Source of the DNA: Mesorhizobium sp. B2-3-12
GTDB taxonomy: Bacteria > Pseudomonadota > Alphaproteobacteria > Rhizobiales > Rhizobiaceae
Length of the DNA: 64,000 bases
Reading direction: 5' to 3'
Assembly (NCBI RefSeq): GCF_006442205.1
Contig: NZ_VFVR01000001.1
Span: forward strand, 496,001-560,000
Each line of letters begins with the position of its first letter. The first letter of the stretch is position 1. The notes below the pieces were generated by a model. That model was not told the origin of the DNA. It made no database searches and saw only the letters and a program-made list of their open reading frames with translations. This document shows positions 41,369 to 46,093 of the stretch, in pieces. The position numbers and the translations under genes are program-made.

Positions 41369-42259
41369 TCAGCGACCCGCACAGACTTCCCGCACGCAGT
41401 CCCGCAACCAGCGCTGCGCCGGATCCGCATCGAGACGCGGATGCCAGAGCAGGGAGATAGTGACGTCCAGGGGCGTGACCGGCAGCGCAAAACTGTGCAT
41501 GCCGGCGCGCGCTCCTGTCGTATGGCGCTCGGGCACGCTGGCGATAAGATCAGAGGCCCGCGCCATGGCAAGTGCCGCCGAGAACCCGGAGACCATGCAC
41601 ACGACCGTCCGCTGCAAGCCAAGTCCGCGCAAGGCCTCGTCGATCGGCCCCGTCTCGCGGCCGCGCCGCGAGACGCTGATGTGACGCCCCGCCGCGTAGC
41701 GTTCGGGCGTCACCATGGCCTCGGTCAGGGGATGGCCGGCTCGCACGGCGCCGACGAAGCGGTCGCGAAACAGCGCCTGGATGCGCACTTCCGGCCCGGT
41801 CTCGCCGGCAACGCCGATTTCCAGATCGATCGCCGCTTCGCGCAGCGACATCGCATCCTTGTCCGACTTCGGCGCGAACCGCAGCCGCACCGCTGGCGCA
41901 TCGGCCTCGATGCGGGTGACGAGGCGAGGCCCGAACTCCTCGACGAAGCTTTCGTTGGTGCGCAACGTGAAGATCCGATCCAGGCTCCGGGGATCAAGCA
42001 ATTCGGCGGGGCGCAGCAACCCTTCCGCGTCCTGGACGACGCGGCCGACCTGTCGCCGCAACTCTTCCGCGCGCGGTGTCGCCACCAAGCCGCGCCCGGC
42101 GCGCACCAGCAGAGGATCGCCCGTTGCCTCGCGCAGCCGCGCCAGCGTCCGGCTCATCGCCGAGGGGCTGAGCCGCAGCCGGCGCGCCGCGCGTGCCACG
42201 CTGCCTTCGGCCAGCAGAACGTCGAGAGCAAAGAGCAGATTGAGATCGGGCGATGTCAT
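41369..42259 (-). CDS. LysR-family transcriptional regulator
   Basis: The 296-residue protein starts MTSPDLNLLFALDVLLAEGSVARAARRLRLSPSAMSRTLARLREATGDPLLVR, the LysR winged helix, followed by a substrate-binding domain (LDRIFTLRTNESFVEEFGPRL). It is divergent from a DHA2-type MFS exporter across a 131-bp spacer that contains an AT-rich CATATCATATG palindrome (42274-42284), a reasonable LysR site. Convergent with the MocR gene, 4 bp apart. Confidence 0.9.
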   Translation of the reverse strand: MTSPDLNLLFALDVLLAEGSVARAARRLRLSPSAMSRTLARLREATGDPLLVRAGRGLVATPRAEELRRQVGRVVQDAEGLLRPAELLDPRSLDRIFTLRTNESFVEEFGPRLVTRIEADAPAVRLRFAPKSDKDAMSLREAAIDLEIGVAGETGPEVRIQALFRDRFVGAVRAGHPLTEAMVTPERYAAGRHISVSRRGRETGPIDEALRGLGLQRTVVCMVSGFSAALAMARASDLIASVPERHTTGARAGMHSFALPVTPLDVTISLLWHPRLDADPAQRWLRDCVREVCAGR

Positions 42260-42390
42260 GGATCGATCATAGCATATCATATGGCGTCCGACGCACGAAT
42301 ATGATGCAAATGCTGCGCCTTCCGCCGCATCAGACACAGGACTAGATCTCCGACAACTCCGATTCCGGAGCAGACAGAAAGGAGATCGCC

Positions 42391-43842
42391 TTGGCAGTCG
42401 CTGAGCAAAATCGGGAACTGATATCGGCGCCGCAACCGACCCGGTCCGTCGGCCTGGCGCTGGCGAGCCTGTCGCTCGCCACGCTGCTGTCGTCATTGGG
42501 AACCAGCATTGCCAGCGTCGGCCTGCCTTCGCTGATGCAAGCCTTCGATGCATCGTTCCAGGCCGTGCAATGGGTGGTTCTCGCCTATCTGCTCGCCATC
42601 ACCACACTGATCGTCGGCGCTGGGCGGCTGGCCGACATGTTCGGGCGCCGGCCATTGCTGCTTGGCGGCATCGCGCTGTTCACGCTGGCATCGGTCGTCT
42701 GCGGCCTGGCGCCGACGCTCTGGCTGCTGATCGCGGCGCGGGCCGTGCAGGGGCTTGGCGCCGCGCTGATGATGGCGCTGACGCTGGCCTTCGTTGCGCA
42801 AACCGTGAGCAAGGAACGAACCGGCAGTGCCATGGGCCTGCTCGGTGCCATGTCAGCCGTCGGCACGACGCTCGGGCCGTCGCTTGGCGGCTTGTTGATC
42901 GCCGGCCTCGGCTGGCGGGCGATCTTTCTCGTCAATGTCCCGCTGGGCCTCCTGACCTTCGCTCTCGCCTGGCGTGGCTTGCCGGCACGCGGCGGAACAA
43001 TGGAGGCCGGTCGAGGCACGTTTGACGTGATCGGCACCGCCCTGCTGGCCCTTACCTTGGGCGCCTATGCCCTGGCATTGACGCTTGGCCGAGGCAATTT
43101 CGGCGTGCTCAATCTGGGCCTGCTGGTCGCGGCCGGTGTCGGCGTCATCTTATTCGCCATGGCGCAGGCAAAAGCGAAGATGCCTCTTGTCCAACCAGCG
43201 AGGCCCCGCGACCCGCGGCTGAGTGCCGGCCTCGCCACGAGCTTGATCGTCGCCACGGTGATGATGGCAACCTTGGTGGTTGCTCCGTTCTACCTGACGC
43301 GCGCGCTCGGATTGGATGCCGGGATGGTCGGCATGGTGCTGTCGACCGGACCGCTTGTCTCGACCCTGTCGGCGCTGCTGGCTGGACGCCTGACCGATCG
43401 CTTCGGAGCCCACGGGATGACGGCCACCGGCTTGGCGATCCTCGCCACGGGGACGCTCCTGTTGTCGCTTGCGCTGACGCGCCTCGGCATTGCCAGCTAT
43501 GTCGTTCCAATCGCCGTCACCTGCTTCGGCTACGCCCTCTTCCAGACCGCCAACAACGCAGCCGTCATGGGCGGTGTAAGCGCAAACGAACGTGGCGTCG
43601 TTTCCGGCCTGCTCAACCTGTCGCGCAATCTCGGCCTCATCACCGGCGCATCGCTGATGGGCGCCATATTCGCGATGGCGTCGAGTGACGCCCGGCATGG
43701 GATCGGGCAACAACTCTCGAGTTCCGCGGCCGCTGCCCGAGGCATGCAGATCACCTTTCGGACAGCCACGGCCCTGGCGCTGGCCGCGCTGGTGATCGCC
43801 CTCCTCTCCGTCCGCGCCGGGCGAAAATCCAACCTGCCTTGA
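42391..43842 (+). CDS. MFS multidrug exporter, DHA2 (EmrB/QacA) family
   Basis: The 483-residue protein has about fourteen helices and the DHA2 motifs: LGTSIASVGLPSLMQAFDASFQAVQWVVLAYLL, the loop GRLADMFGRRPLLLGG, and MGLLGAMSAVGTTLGPSLGGLL (motif C). It likely expels hydrophobic drugs by proton antiport. The start is TTG 42391 after AAAGGAGATCGCC, a strong site. Divergent from the LysR gene, which is the probable regulator. Confidence 0.9.
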   Translation: MAVAEQNRELISAPQPTRSVGLALASLSLATLLSSLGTSIASVGLPSLMQAFDASFQAVQWVVLAYLLAITTLIVGAGRLADMFGRRPLLLGGIALFTLASVVCGLAPTLWLLIAARAVQGLGAALMMALTLAFVAQTVSKERTGSAMGLLGAMSAVGTTLGPSLGGLLIAGLGWRAIFLVNVPLGLLTFALAWRGLPARGGTMEAGRGTFDVIGTALLALTLGAYALALTLGRGNFGVLNLGLLVAAGVGVILFAMAQAKAKMPLVQPARPRDPRLSAGLATSLIVATVMMATLVVAPFYLTRALGLDAGMVGMVLSTGPLVSTLSALLAGRLTDRFGAHGMTATGLAILATGTLLLSLALTRLGIASYVVPIAVTCFGYALFQTANNAAVMGGVSANERGVVSGLLNLSRNLGLITGASLMGAIFAMASSDARHGIGQQLSSSAAAARGMQITFRTATALALAALVIALLSVRAGRKSNLP

Positions 43843-43952
43843 GCCGCGACCGTCTGAAGGCTCATGGAGCCGCGAAGGTTGCCGAGCCGGTTCCAGATTG
43901 GTACTGACCGGCACGCGGACTCGGGTCCGCGACGCCAATTCGGGACAGTGTT

Positions 43953-43982
43953 ATGGGAACCACCAAGTCAGCAGACAAGTAA
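43953..43982 (+). CDS. CmlA/FloR-type leader peptide
   Basis: A nine-codon frame encodes MGTTKSADK and stops. It closely resembles the cmlA leader peptide MSTSKNADK, which controls chloramphenicol efflux genes by drug-dependent ribosome stalling. It lies 105 bp ahead of a FloR-like exporter and is followed at once by a hairpin. The ribosome-binding site is weak (CGGGACAG). Confidence 0.75.
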   Translation: MGTTKSADK

Positions 43983-44077
43983 GCCGCGACAACACCTCGT
44001 TGTTGCGGCCTTCTGCCCCGTCAAATCAGACCATTCATGAAACGGCAGATCGCCGCCAAATCTCACCATTTGTGCGG
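43983..44077 (+). promoter_or_regulatory. Candidate translational attenuator of the phenicol exporter
   Basis: Hairpin 1 pairs GCCGCGACAAC (43983-43993) with GTTGTTGCGGC (43999-44009), 11 bp with one G-U. It starts directly after the leader stop. Hairpin 2 pairs CCGCCAAAT (44053-44061) with ATTTGTGCGG (44068-44077) and ends in the weak SD of the exporter. The 3' arm of hairpin 1 can alternatively pair with GCCGC of hairpin 2. Confidence 0.6.
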
Positions 44078-44087
44078 ATGCTCAATC

Positions 44088-45305
44088 ATGCCTTTTCAAA
44101 AACAACCCTCCCCGACATGGGCTTATGCCTTGCCCTCGGCACTCCTGCTGATGGCGCCTTTCGACATCCTTGCTTCGCTGGCCATGGATATCTATTTGCC
44201 GGTGGTTCCGGCGATGCCGGAGGCTCTCGGCACATCGCCCGCCATCATTCAGCTGACCCTCAGCCTCTATATGGTGACCCTCGGCCTCGGCCAGGTCGTG
44301 TTCGGCCCGGTCTCCGACCGGGTCGGCAGGCGCCCGGTGCTGATCGGTGGCGGGCTGCTGTTCGCGGGCGCTTCCGTCCTGCTCTCCGTCACGTCGCACG
44401 GCACGCCCTTTGTCGTACTGCGTGTCGTGCAGGCCATGGGCGCATCGGCTGTTCTGGTCGCAACCTTCGCCACGGTCCGGGATGTCTATGCCGGACGGCC
44501 GGAGGGCACCGTCATCTATGGACTGTTCAGTTCCATGCTGGCATTCGTGCCGGCATTAGGACCGGTCGCCGGCGCCCTGATCGCCAAGGGATTCGGCTGG
44601 CGTGCCATCTTCGTCACGCTCGCTATCCTGGCCGCGGCGGCCACGCTCAACGCGTGGCTGCGATGGCATGAGACGCGGCCCTCGAACAGCTCGGGTCCAC
44701 GTCCTGCATTCGGCACGATCCTGGGCAGCTTCGCCTTCTGGACCTACACGCTCGGCTTCGCCACGGCGATGGGCACGTTCTTCGTGTTCTTCTCGACGGC
44801 GCCCAGGGTGCTGATCGATCGCGCCGGCTTCTCGCAGATCGCCTTCAGCGTCGCCTTTGCCACGGCGGCACTGGTGATGATCGCAACGACGCGATTTGCC
44901 AGGTCGTTCATCGCCCGATGGGGCGTGCCCGGCAGCCTCGCCCGCGGCATGGCGATGTTGCTTCTCGGCGCGGCGATGCTGGCACTGGGCCAGATCTTCG
45001 CCGCCCCTTCCTTCACGACCTTCGTCCTGCCCATGTGGGTGATGGCCGTGGGCATCGTCTTTGCCGGATCGGTCACCGCCAATGGCGCGCTCGAAGCCTT
45101 CGGCGATCTCGCGGGCGCTGCCGTGGCACTCTATTTCTGCGTCCAGAGCCTGATCGTCGGCATCGCCGGAACGTTGTTCGTGCTCCTGCTTGGCGGCGAC
45201 ACGGCGTGGCCCCTGGCCTGCTATGCCGCCATTTTCGCGGTGATAACGCTGCTTGCGCTCGAGCTTTTGCGGAGCATGCAGGCAAGGCAGGACAGCAACA
45301 GCTGA
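44088..45305 (+). CDS. FloR/CmlA-type phenicol (florfenicol/chloramphenicol) MFS exporter
   Basis: The 405-residue, twelve-helix DHA1 protein begins MPFQKQPSPTWAYALPSALL and then LLMAPFDILASLAMDIYLPVVPAMP, near identical to FloR as I recall it. Further FloR-like blocks: IQLTLSLYMVTLGLGQVVFG, MLAFVPALGPVAGALIAKGF, MGTFFVFFSTAPRVLIDRAG and VALYFCVQSLIV. FloR exports florfenicol and chloramphenicol. The start at 44088 fits FloR; ATG 44037 is in frame but without an SD. The leader peptide and hairpins upstream suggest drug-induced translation. Base composition matches the neighbours, so it looks resident, not newly acquired. Confidence 0.85.
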   Translation: MPFQKQPSPTWAYALPSALLLMAPFDILASLAMDIYLPVVPAMPEALGTSPAIIQLTLSLYMVTLGLGQVVFGPVSDRVGRRPVLIGGGLLFAGASVLLSVTSHGTPFVVLRVVQAMGASAVLVATFATVRDVYAGRPEGTVIYGLFSSMLAFVPALGPVAGALIAKGFGWRAIFVTLAILAAAATLNAWLRWHETRPSNSSGPRPAFGTILGSFAFWTYTLGFATAMGTFFVFFSTAPRVLIDRAGFSQIAFSVAFATAALVMIATTRFARSFIARWGVPGSLARGMAMLLLGAAMLALGQIFAAPSFTTFVLPMWVMAVGIVFAGSVTANGALEAFGDLAGAAVALYFCVQSLIVGIAGTLFVLLLGGDTAWPLACYAAIFAVITLLALELLRSMQARQDSNS

Positions 45306-45319
45306 AGGAAATGACGCAC

Positions 45320-45348
45320 GGGGCCTGATGGACCGCCGTTCAGGCCCC
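45320..45348. terminator. Hairpin between the exporter and the maoC-like gene
   Basis: GGGGCCTGA (45320-45328) pairs with TCAGGCCCC (45340-45348). It overlaps the stop codon of the convergent gene; no T tract follows, so termination is tentative. Confidence 0.5.
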
Positions 45349-45837
45349 TGCCCGTTTGCGGCGTTCGTAAAGCATGACGAGTGTTTCAGCCATCAGCGCC
45401 GGTTTTTCCTCGCCTTCGATCTCGACCGTGTTGGCGGCCTTCATCAGGTATTGGCCGGGGCCCCGGTCTTCCATGGAGAGCAGCGTCGTGCGCAGGCGGA
45501 TGCGTGCGCCGACCCTGACCGGCGCCAGGAAACGCACCTTGTCGAAACCATAGTTGAAGGCGGCCTGCGTATTCTCGGGCACGATCCCCATTTCGAGGGC
45601 CAGCGCGCCAATGATCGACAATGTCAGATAACCATGCGCGATCGTCGTGCGAAACGGGCTTTGCCGCCGCGCCCGTTCAGGATCGACGTGGATCCATTGA
45701 TGGTCGCCGGTGCATTCGGCGAATTGGTTGATACGGTTCTGGTCGACCGTGGTCCATTCCGAGACGCCGAGCTCCTGTCCGGACATCGTTCTCAACTGCT
45801 CATAGGTTGGCGGCGTTTTAGGCCGTGCTTCCGTCAT
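45340..45837 (-). CDS. MaoC-family dehydratase ((R)-enoyl-CoA hydratase type)
   Basis: The 165-residue hot-dog protein has the hydratase-2 catalytic motif FAECTGDHQWIHVDPERAR (Asp-x-x-x-x-His) and then FRTTIAHGYLTLSIIGAL. It hydrates enoyl-CoA to (R)-3-hydroxyacyl-CoA, feeding polyhydroxyalkanoate or beta-oxidation. Start MTEARPKTPPTYEQL at 45837. The phasin gene 257 bp upstream on the same strand supports a link with storage granules. Confidence 0.87.
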   Translation of the reverse strand: MTEARPKTPPTYEQLRTMSGQELGVSEWTTVDQNRINQFAECTGDHQWIHVDPERARRQSPFRTTIAHGYLTLSIIGALALEMGIVPENTQAAFNYGFDKVRFLAPVRVGARIRLRTTLLSMEDRGPGQYLMKAANTVEIEGEEKPALMAETLVMLYERRKRAGA

Positions 45838-46093
45838 TCCTGCTTTCCCGATCGCTTCCGAAGCTTCCGGATCACGACCGGCGGCCTCTGTCAATTCGTC
45901 CTGCCTGAATCCGTTCCGGCGGATTCGAGCTCACTCGTGCCATGGCTTAGCATGCGATGGCAGGCCGAATTCGGATTTTCCAACCTTCTGGGGCTGCGGG
46001 AGCTTATGGCGTGGCGCTAATGCAACTATGTGCAAGGTCGCGGAATTGCGAACCTGGCGTCTGCCGGAAGACGAAGCGATAGGTCCAAACAAC

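Follow-up and report, generated by a model that had tools for sequence, protein, structure and literature searches.

Drug-stalled leader peptides free a masked ribosome site in the translational attenuators of cat, ermC and fexA, which are best studied in the Firmicutes. These three systems are named in PMC5890775 and in the excerpted text of PMC8876359, and their resistance genes and leaders are unrelated to those of the locus described here. In the cmlA attenuator of integron cassettes, two alternative stem-loop pairs have already been proposed (Stokes and Hall 1991, as cited in the excerpt of PMC8876359); the same excerpt describes a nine-codon leader and hairpins, with the ribosome site lying in one of them. 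A leader and inverted repeat have likewise been noted as a putative attenuator upstream of mobile floR, where stem-loop and ribosome site are reported not to overlap and the role of the structure was left open (PMC5890775, PMC8256890). The floR mRNA rises with chloramphenicol (PMC5890775), and among P. aeruginosa variants exposed to florfenicol or chloramphenicol one exhibited a strong rise and another a slight one (PMC8256890).

A chromosomal gene of the same CmlA/FloR family, MXAN_2566 of M. xanthus, is also chloramphenicol-induced: according to the excerpted text of PMC6617876, in the adapted culture it led all genes in upregulation (log2 5.60), which was not the case after 8 h, and a mutant lacking it showed no growth for 7 days in the presence of chloramphenicol, growing only later. 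The term 'leader' is absent from the main text of that paper. Among the matches listed in a search of the open-access literature, no paper on attenuators of chromosomal floR-like genes was found.

Layout of the locus

The window analysed here is a stretch of 64,000 nt from Mesorhizobium sp. B2-3-12, in which a nine-codon frame on the forward strand (43953-43982) encodes the peptide MGTTKSADK followed by a stop codon. A GGGA motif at 43942-43945 on the same strand is a candidate Shine-Dalgarno sequence for this frame. The initial annotation had remarked on the likeness of the peptide to the cmlA leader, and this is confirmed by the plasmid cmlA copy (L115), the leader of which is MSTSKNADK; the plasmid copies of floR (L113, L117) and floR2 (L112), as well as L086, have the leader MGNSKSADK.

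Arm 1 (GCCGCGACAAC, 43983-43993) starts directly after the leader stop and pairs with arm 2 (GTTGTTGCGGC, 43999-44009), forming a hairpin of 11 bp that includes one G-U pair (1:2). Arm 3 (44044-44062) has two potential partners on this strand. Its last ten nucleotides, 44053-44062, pair with arm 4 (CATTTGTGCGG, 44067-44077) in a second hairpin (3:4), in which nine of ten positions pair in the window; the first part, 44044-44056, can instead pair with 44005-44017, comprising the end of arm 2 and its extension, where 11 of 12 counted positions pair (2:3). Helix 2:3 is mutually exclusive with both 1:2 and 3:4, and this choice of pairings is conserved. Hairpin 3:4 covers the GCGG of the weak Shine-Dalgarno region GCGGATG (44074-44080, placed by alignment), so would mask the first half of the ribosome-binding site of the downstream gene; several distant members have GGAG or GGAGG in the same place. 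All of these structures had been anticipated in the initial annotation, and have been borne out. No intrinsic terminator-like site (a hairpin followed by a U run) was found between 43700 and 44150, and no Rfam covariance model matched between 43850 and 44150 at an E value of up to 1.

The gene behind the switch (44088-45305, forward strand) encodes an exporter of the major facilitator superfamily (MFS), 405 aa long, identified by BLAST, NCBIfam models and alignment. Its ATG at 44088 aligns with the conserved start of related exporters; a start at 44037, which gives the longer listed open reading frame, was rejected because this ATG is lost in the close relative L032. The protein scores 632.8 bits against NF033134, the equivalog model of CmlA/FloR family exporters (cut-off 450), and falls below the cut-offs of the exception models for FloR proper (NF000219, 574.2 bits, cut-off 700) and CmlA proper (NF000509, 383 bits, cut-off 875). 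It is 66.4% identical to a plasmid FloR over 402 aligned residues, rising to 68-70% in the best BLAST segment, and 47.1% identical to a CmlA over 401 residues. The closeness to FloR remarked on in the initial annotation corresponds to these levels of identity. Residues D23, R109 and E283 of FloR have been reported to matter for phenicol recognition (PMC5890775); the first two correspond to D26 and R112 of the window exporter, and for E283 the numbering of the paper and that of the FloR sequence compared here disagree.

Immediately upstream lies a DHA2-type MFS exporter (42391-43842, forward strand, assigned by Pfam), which is outside the switch; downstream, a gene for a MaoC-like dehydratase (45340-45894, reverse strand), assigned by Pfam and synteny, marks the conserved side of the site. 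As noted previously, the base composition of the exporter gene (GC 0.652, GC3 0.817) is similar to that of its neighbours, and a Pfam scan of ten neighbouring genes revealed no transposase or integrase. Relative to the cmlA system, the locus differs in being chromosomal rather than a mobile cassette, in having the weak GCGGATG in place of a strong AAGGAG, and in the sequence of helix 3:4. The floR attenuator of plasmids and ICEs has the same module, including an 11-bp inverted repeat, and differs from the window copy in its location and in the 66% identity of the exporters.

Conservation of the leader-hairpin module

Exporters with at least 45% identity were taken as members of the clade, which accounted for 94 of 117 loci and 72 distinct upstream sequences. 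A lack of leader conservation in orthologues had been set beforehand as an outcome that would refute the proposal, and it did not occur: in 93 of the 94 clade loci, the leader stop position is followed at once by the GCCGC hairpin. The one exception is L107, from Flavobacterium kayseriense, a floR-type gene in which the upstream attenuator has been replaced by unrelated sequence. Peptides matching the window leader at five or more of nine letters were found upstream of 87 of the 94 clade exporters; the remaining seven are L107, which lacks the module, and six loci with shorter, stop-less or diverged leaders. Upstream of 23 distantly related MFS genes (L008-L030, with identities of no more than 33%), the best likeness was four letters of nine. 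The module is also present at the homologue in M. dinghuensis (L090), a genus mate of M. xanthus.

A covariance model, R1, built from 44 representatives, was run against 398 genomes of the phylum and matched 14 of them. Searching these genomes at the protein level yielded 13 intact exporters with at least 45% identity, the next full-length match being only 36% identical, and these 13 genomes are all among the 14 matched by R1, a correspondence that is not fully independent, as R1 includes the window and also rows close to some of the 13. The fourteenth genome, G648, has no exporter at the matching site, and a further genome, G327, contains a broken exporter fragment (60%) with no attenuator match. 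Six R1 matches lack an exporter: L133, L134, L143, L194 and L195, with E values of 5e-6 to 1e-3, and L203. By eye, L133 and L134 are inside a GC-rich coding stretch and L143 sits at a palindrome, and these three were rejected as attenuators of other genes. Judging from these comparisons, the combination of leader and hairpins is beyond chance, and a short leader frame directly upstream of the exporter is conserved across the orthologues.

The proposed stall site

The ribosome would be expected to stall with Asp8 of the leader in the P site and Ala7 as the penultimate residue. The inferred positions were compared across 158 loci having the leader stop position plus GCCG pattern, such that the register is partly given by construction, whilst the residues are not; L193 was placed by hand, and L107, L203, six repeats of earlier places and L188, which duplicates a place already listed, were excluded. 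The inferred penultimate residue is Ala in 108 loci, Ser in 33 and Thr in 17, with no other residue at any of the 158, many of which nearly duplicate mobile floR and a few of which may represent one genome in two collections; among 73 representatives, the counts are 46, 23 and 4. The second base of this codon is always C, with the first and third bases varying, and the residue has changed at least eight times on the tree (114 rows with a leader). The inferred P-site residue is Asp in 139 loci, Val in 17, and Thr and Ala in one each.

Distant members have leaders such as MNNGNGPQTVR, MGANPLAVR, MHKTDR, MGNAKSSDE and MSTAKKAD, and lengths range from about six to 11 codons. The first base of the P-site codon lies 9 nt before the start of arm 1; this distance is unchanged even in L053 and L055, where the leader stop is lost, and in L193, where it is one codon early. 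The first part of arm 1, the 5' arm of hairpin 1:2, would therefore be expected to lie under a ribosome stalled at Asp8.

In the excerpted text of PMC8987054, stalling by chloramphenicol and linezolid is strongest when the penultimate residue is Ala, and weaker with Ser or Thr; the excerpt of PMC10192921 describes KNAD, the motif of the CmlA leader, as a chloramphenicol-induced arrest peptide. The leader thus seems to carry the stalling context of the drug. At this one position the residue has moved among Ala, Ser and Thr across the clade, and the resulting natural series of stall sites, which follows the ribosomal rule for chloramphenicol, may be of use for studying whether this residue affects how sensitive the switch is.

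Pairing and covariation of the helices

Two alignments were used to study the helices. A1 comprises 44 of 47 representatives (L006, L034 and L045, in which a long insert separates arms 2 and 3, having been excluded), and A2 comprises 66, with more distant members added; four of the 26 additions (L204, L206, L219 and L221) were left out owing to a wrong start call or a long insert. In A1, 99.6% of the cells of helix 1:2 are paired, 90.2% of those of 3:4 and 92.5% of those of 2:3; the corresponding values in A2 are 99.7%, 86.5% and 90.0%.

Hairpins devoid of covariation had been named in the initial annotation as a further refuting outcome, which did not occur, although the measures are mixed. 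On A2, the covariation score of 3:4 is 0.219, compared with 0.164 in shuffled alignments, and that of 2:3 is 0.135, compared with 0.107, neither being attained in any of 500 shuffles, although kinship alone can exceed shuffles without any structure. Versions of 3:4 slid along the alignment scored at most 0.123, and 2:3 contains 21 further pair types, compared with 14.4 in the shuffles (0 of 500 as high). Against this, 27 of 500 shuffles had at least as many doubly changed pairs as 2:3 on A2, and 76 of 500 at least as many as 3:4, and slid versions sometimes have more doubly changed cells, as when 2:3 is moved by three columns (24 against 12). On A1, helix 2:3 exhibited no covariation above the shuffles, its score being reached by 88 of 500 and its double changes by 420 of 500. 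The freedom of arm 3 to covary is limited by its being common to two helices. By some measures, then, and with distant members included, 2:3 and 3:4 appear to covary.

Folding predictions

Partition-function folding of the naked RNA was carried out for the 66 representatives, either free or with the first 13 nt blocked. In the free RNA, helix 1:2 has a probability of 0.99, the core of 2:3 0.02 and the outer part of 3:4 0.83; helix 3:4 is predicted to hide the ribosome site of the exporter. On blocking, the core of 2:3 rises to 0.74, exceeding 0.5 in 55 of 66 sequences, and outer 3:4 falls to 0.17. In six of the 66 the core of 2:3 does not rise by more than 0.1, amongst them the floR2-type L058 (2:3 0.00, outer 3:4 0.71).

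The predicted effect on the ribosome site itself is smaller. The five-nucleotide core of the Shine-Dalgarno sequence is less exposed in the free RNA than in shuffled controls (unpaired at 0.20 against 0.48), and on blocking goes to 0.26, with the controls going to 0.44; a gain of more than 0.1 is seen in 22 of 66 sequences, and closing in six. Across the region from -16 to -6, the unpaired fraction changes from 0.374 to 0.388, a shift that cannot be told apart from that in the shuffled control (p 0.07, n 69). Once freed, arm 2 pairs downstream at 0.88, and still does so at 0.66 when the downstream part is shuffled, hence part of this effect is generic. In naked-RNA folding, the predicted net opening of the ribosome site is therefore slight.

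A proposed mechanism

The locus is very probably a drug-sensing translational attenuator ahead of a resident phenicol exporter. In the absence of the drug, the leader would be freely translated, and helices 1:2 and 3:4 would form, the latter hiding part of the site at which ribosomes bind to translate the exporter. With a phenicol present, or a different inhibitor of the peptidyl transferase that obeys the same context rule, the ribosome would stall when Asp8 occupies the P site and Ala7 is the penultimate residue; covering most of arm 1, the stalled ribosome would leave arm 2 free to pair with arm 3, such that arm 4 would be released and the exporter translated. This would resemble the translational attenuation of cat, erm and cmlA, a parallel that the sequence comparisons make highly likely. 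The exchange of helix 3:4 for 2:3 is proposed here by comparison and goes beyond the published accounts of floR; it may account for control of the floR ribosome site by a leader whose known hairpin stops short of it.

This reading draws on the leader together with the register and residue rule found for it, on the three conserved helices with covariation by some measures, and on the helix exchange predicted when 13 nt are blocked. From these we infer that, in the cell, the drug stalls the ribosome and induces the exporter, and that the ribosome site is freed. The published responses of floR and MXAN_2566 mRNA are consistent with induction in related systems. The disagreement among covariation measures and the arm 2 control with shuffled downstream sequence have been counted against the mechanism.

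Origin of the exporter and its genomic site

A tree of 121 proteins was constructed by a quick method with SH-aLRT support values. Ten rows were labelled as mobile floR by their closeness to plasmid copies, only L113 itself coming from a plasmid record; two other plasmid rows, L112 and L117, are represented by L058 and L086, into which they had been merged. These ten rows and L101 constitute one shallow group (support 92), nested among chromosomal genes of the Hyphomicrobiales: it is found with L128, from the same order (91), and with L099 of Nitratireductor aestuarii (95), and together with further Rhizobium and Mesorhizobium genes these make up a group of 22 rows (support 99). Holding 80 chromosomal rows together apart from mobile floR was rejected (AU p 0.0005), the group having been named after the tree was seen. 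The CmlA-type rows occupy a separate deep branch (support 100), in which the module is also present.

The nearest relatives of the window exporter by sequence are from Mesorhizobium, and on the tree it belongs to a Mesorhizobium clade of eight (support 100). It had been suggested that the window might hold an ancestral version of the mobile resistance gene; the family model upholds its membership of the CmlA/FloR family, but the tree does not uphold this ancestry, placing it as a cousin of mobile floR rather than its ancestor. We lean towards the view that the four-arm switch and leader are older than the split between CmlA and FloR and have passed down proteobacterial chromosomes as a unit with the exporter; the lineages of mobile floR and of cmlA would then each, independently, have taken a ready-made phenicol sensor along. 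The comparisons link floR, a mobile resistance gene of wide spread, together with its switch to chromosomal exporters in soil bacteria.

In many Mesorhizobium genomes the exporter is found near PdxR, LysR-DHA2 and MaoC-phasin-DUF445 genes, the order of which varies. None of these neighbours was detected within the available flanking DNA of L007, L035 and nine listed loci from outside Mesorhizobium. Within a sample of 41 genomes, MaoC is present in all 25 from the same genus, and a model scan located the attenuator at two of these MaoC loci, in the window genome (G000) and G004. In the other four genomes with the exporter, it is no more than 3 kb from MaoC (G014, G015 and G018) or about 79 kb away (G005). 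Of the 19 same-genus genomes lacking the exporter, 15 have PdxR or DHA2 adjoining MaoC with no attenuator between them. Across the genus, 35 of 146 genomes have a model match at an E value of 0.001 or better, one of them weak; the matches include G1001 and G013, the latter at an E value of 5.5e-4. The exporter is thus, on the evidence of synteny, resident, as the initial annotation had supposed, at a mostly syntenic chromosomal site in Mesorhizobium, but patchily distributed.

In the clade of the window exporter, the DHA2-type exporter and a divergently oriented gene for a LysR regulator (41369-42553) lie between PdxR and the leader. Elsewhere in the genus, the DHA2 and LysR genes flank the exporter on its opposite side or, where the exporter is missing, lie next to MaoC.

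Alternative explanations

The leader and hairpins might act on the level of the transcript, by way of attenuation of transcription or stabilisation of the mRNA through Rho access or decay. The induction of both floR and MXAN_2566 has been published as a change in mRNA level, such that stability or Rho may contribute, and the small net opening of the ribosome site in silico points the same way; yet the stretch around the leader contains no intrinsic terminator-like site, and a conserved helix over the Shine-Dalgarno region would be needless were control purely by decay or Rho, making this explanation distinctly unlikely. Somewhat unlikely, too, is that the leader senses in nature a peptidyl-transferase inhibitor that is not a phenicol, for instance a soil product with a preference for Ala, Ser or Thr. 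The residue rule is not specific to phenicols, as linezolid obeys it as well (PMC8987054, in excerpt), but the family is named for the export of chloramphenicol, and MXAN_2566 is both induced by chloramphenicol and protective against it (excerpt of PMC6617876).

Two further explanations are recent acquisition and chance. The patchy distribution, and the many exporter-free sites at which MaoC adjoins PdxR or DHA2 directly, are what might be expected had the exporter been acquired recently from mobile floR with the leader carried along. Such a transfer is nevertheless very improbable: 34% of residues differ between the window protein and FloR, mobile floR is itself the shallow, nested group, the tree that sets the chromosomal rows apart from it being rejected, the exporter keeps related neighbours in diverged species, and its GC and GC3 match those of the genes around it. 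Short open reading frames and hairpins are common in GC-rich DNA, and in general such DNA might yield an arrangement of this sort by coincidence. This is scarcely credible here, given the 93 of 94 clade loci, the 13 of 13 exporter genomes in the phylum sample and the residue rule without exception at 158 loci; a chance reading frame was rejected on the basis of the control MFS genes and the phylum sample. A translational attenuator responding to phenicols remains the reading preferred here.

Variant loci

A number of loci depart from the common arrangement. The spacing between arms 2 and 3 is about 50-70 nt longer in L006, L034, L045, L219 and L221, with the arms themselves kept. In genus g247, outside the class (L171-L187, L139, L141 and L142), the leaders end in SDE, AVR or TVR, one being of the CmlA type, and the exporters are scattered over different places of the tree. 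Leaders resembling that of cmlA (MSTSKNADK) are found ahead of floR-type exporters in L058, from Comamonas, and L137; because the upstream sequence of L058 resembles the cmlA locus L115, recombination at the common leader is suggested.

Some exporters of the same genus appear to have decayed behind their attenuators. In L202 and L217 the exporter match is in two separate pieces and looks broken. L203, on the reverse strand of the same-genus genome G980, is an orphan attenuator between PdxR and MaoC with leader and arms intact, behind which the exporter has been deleted down to about its first 18 codons.
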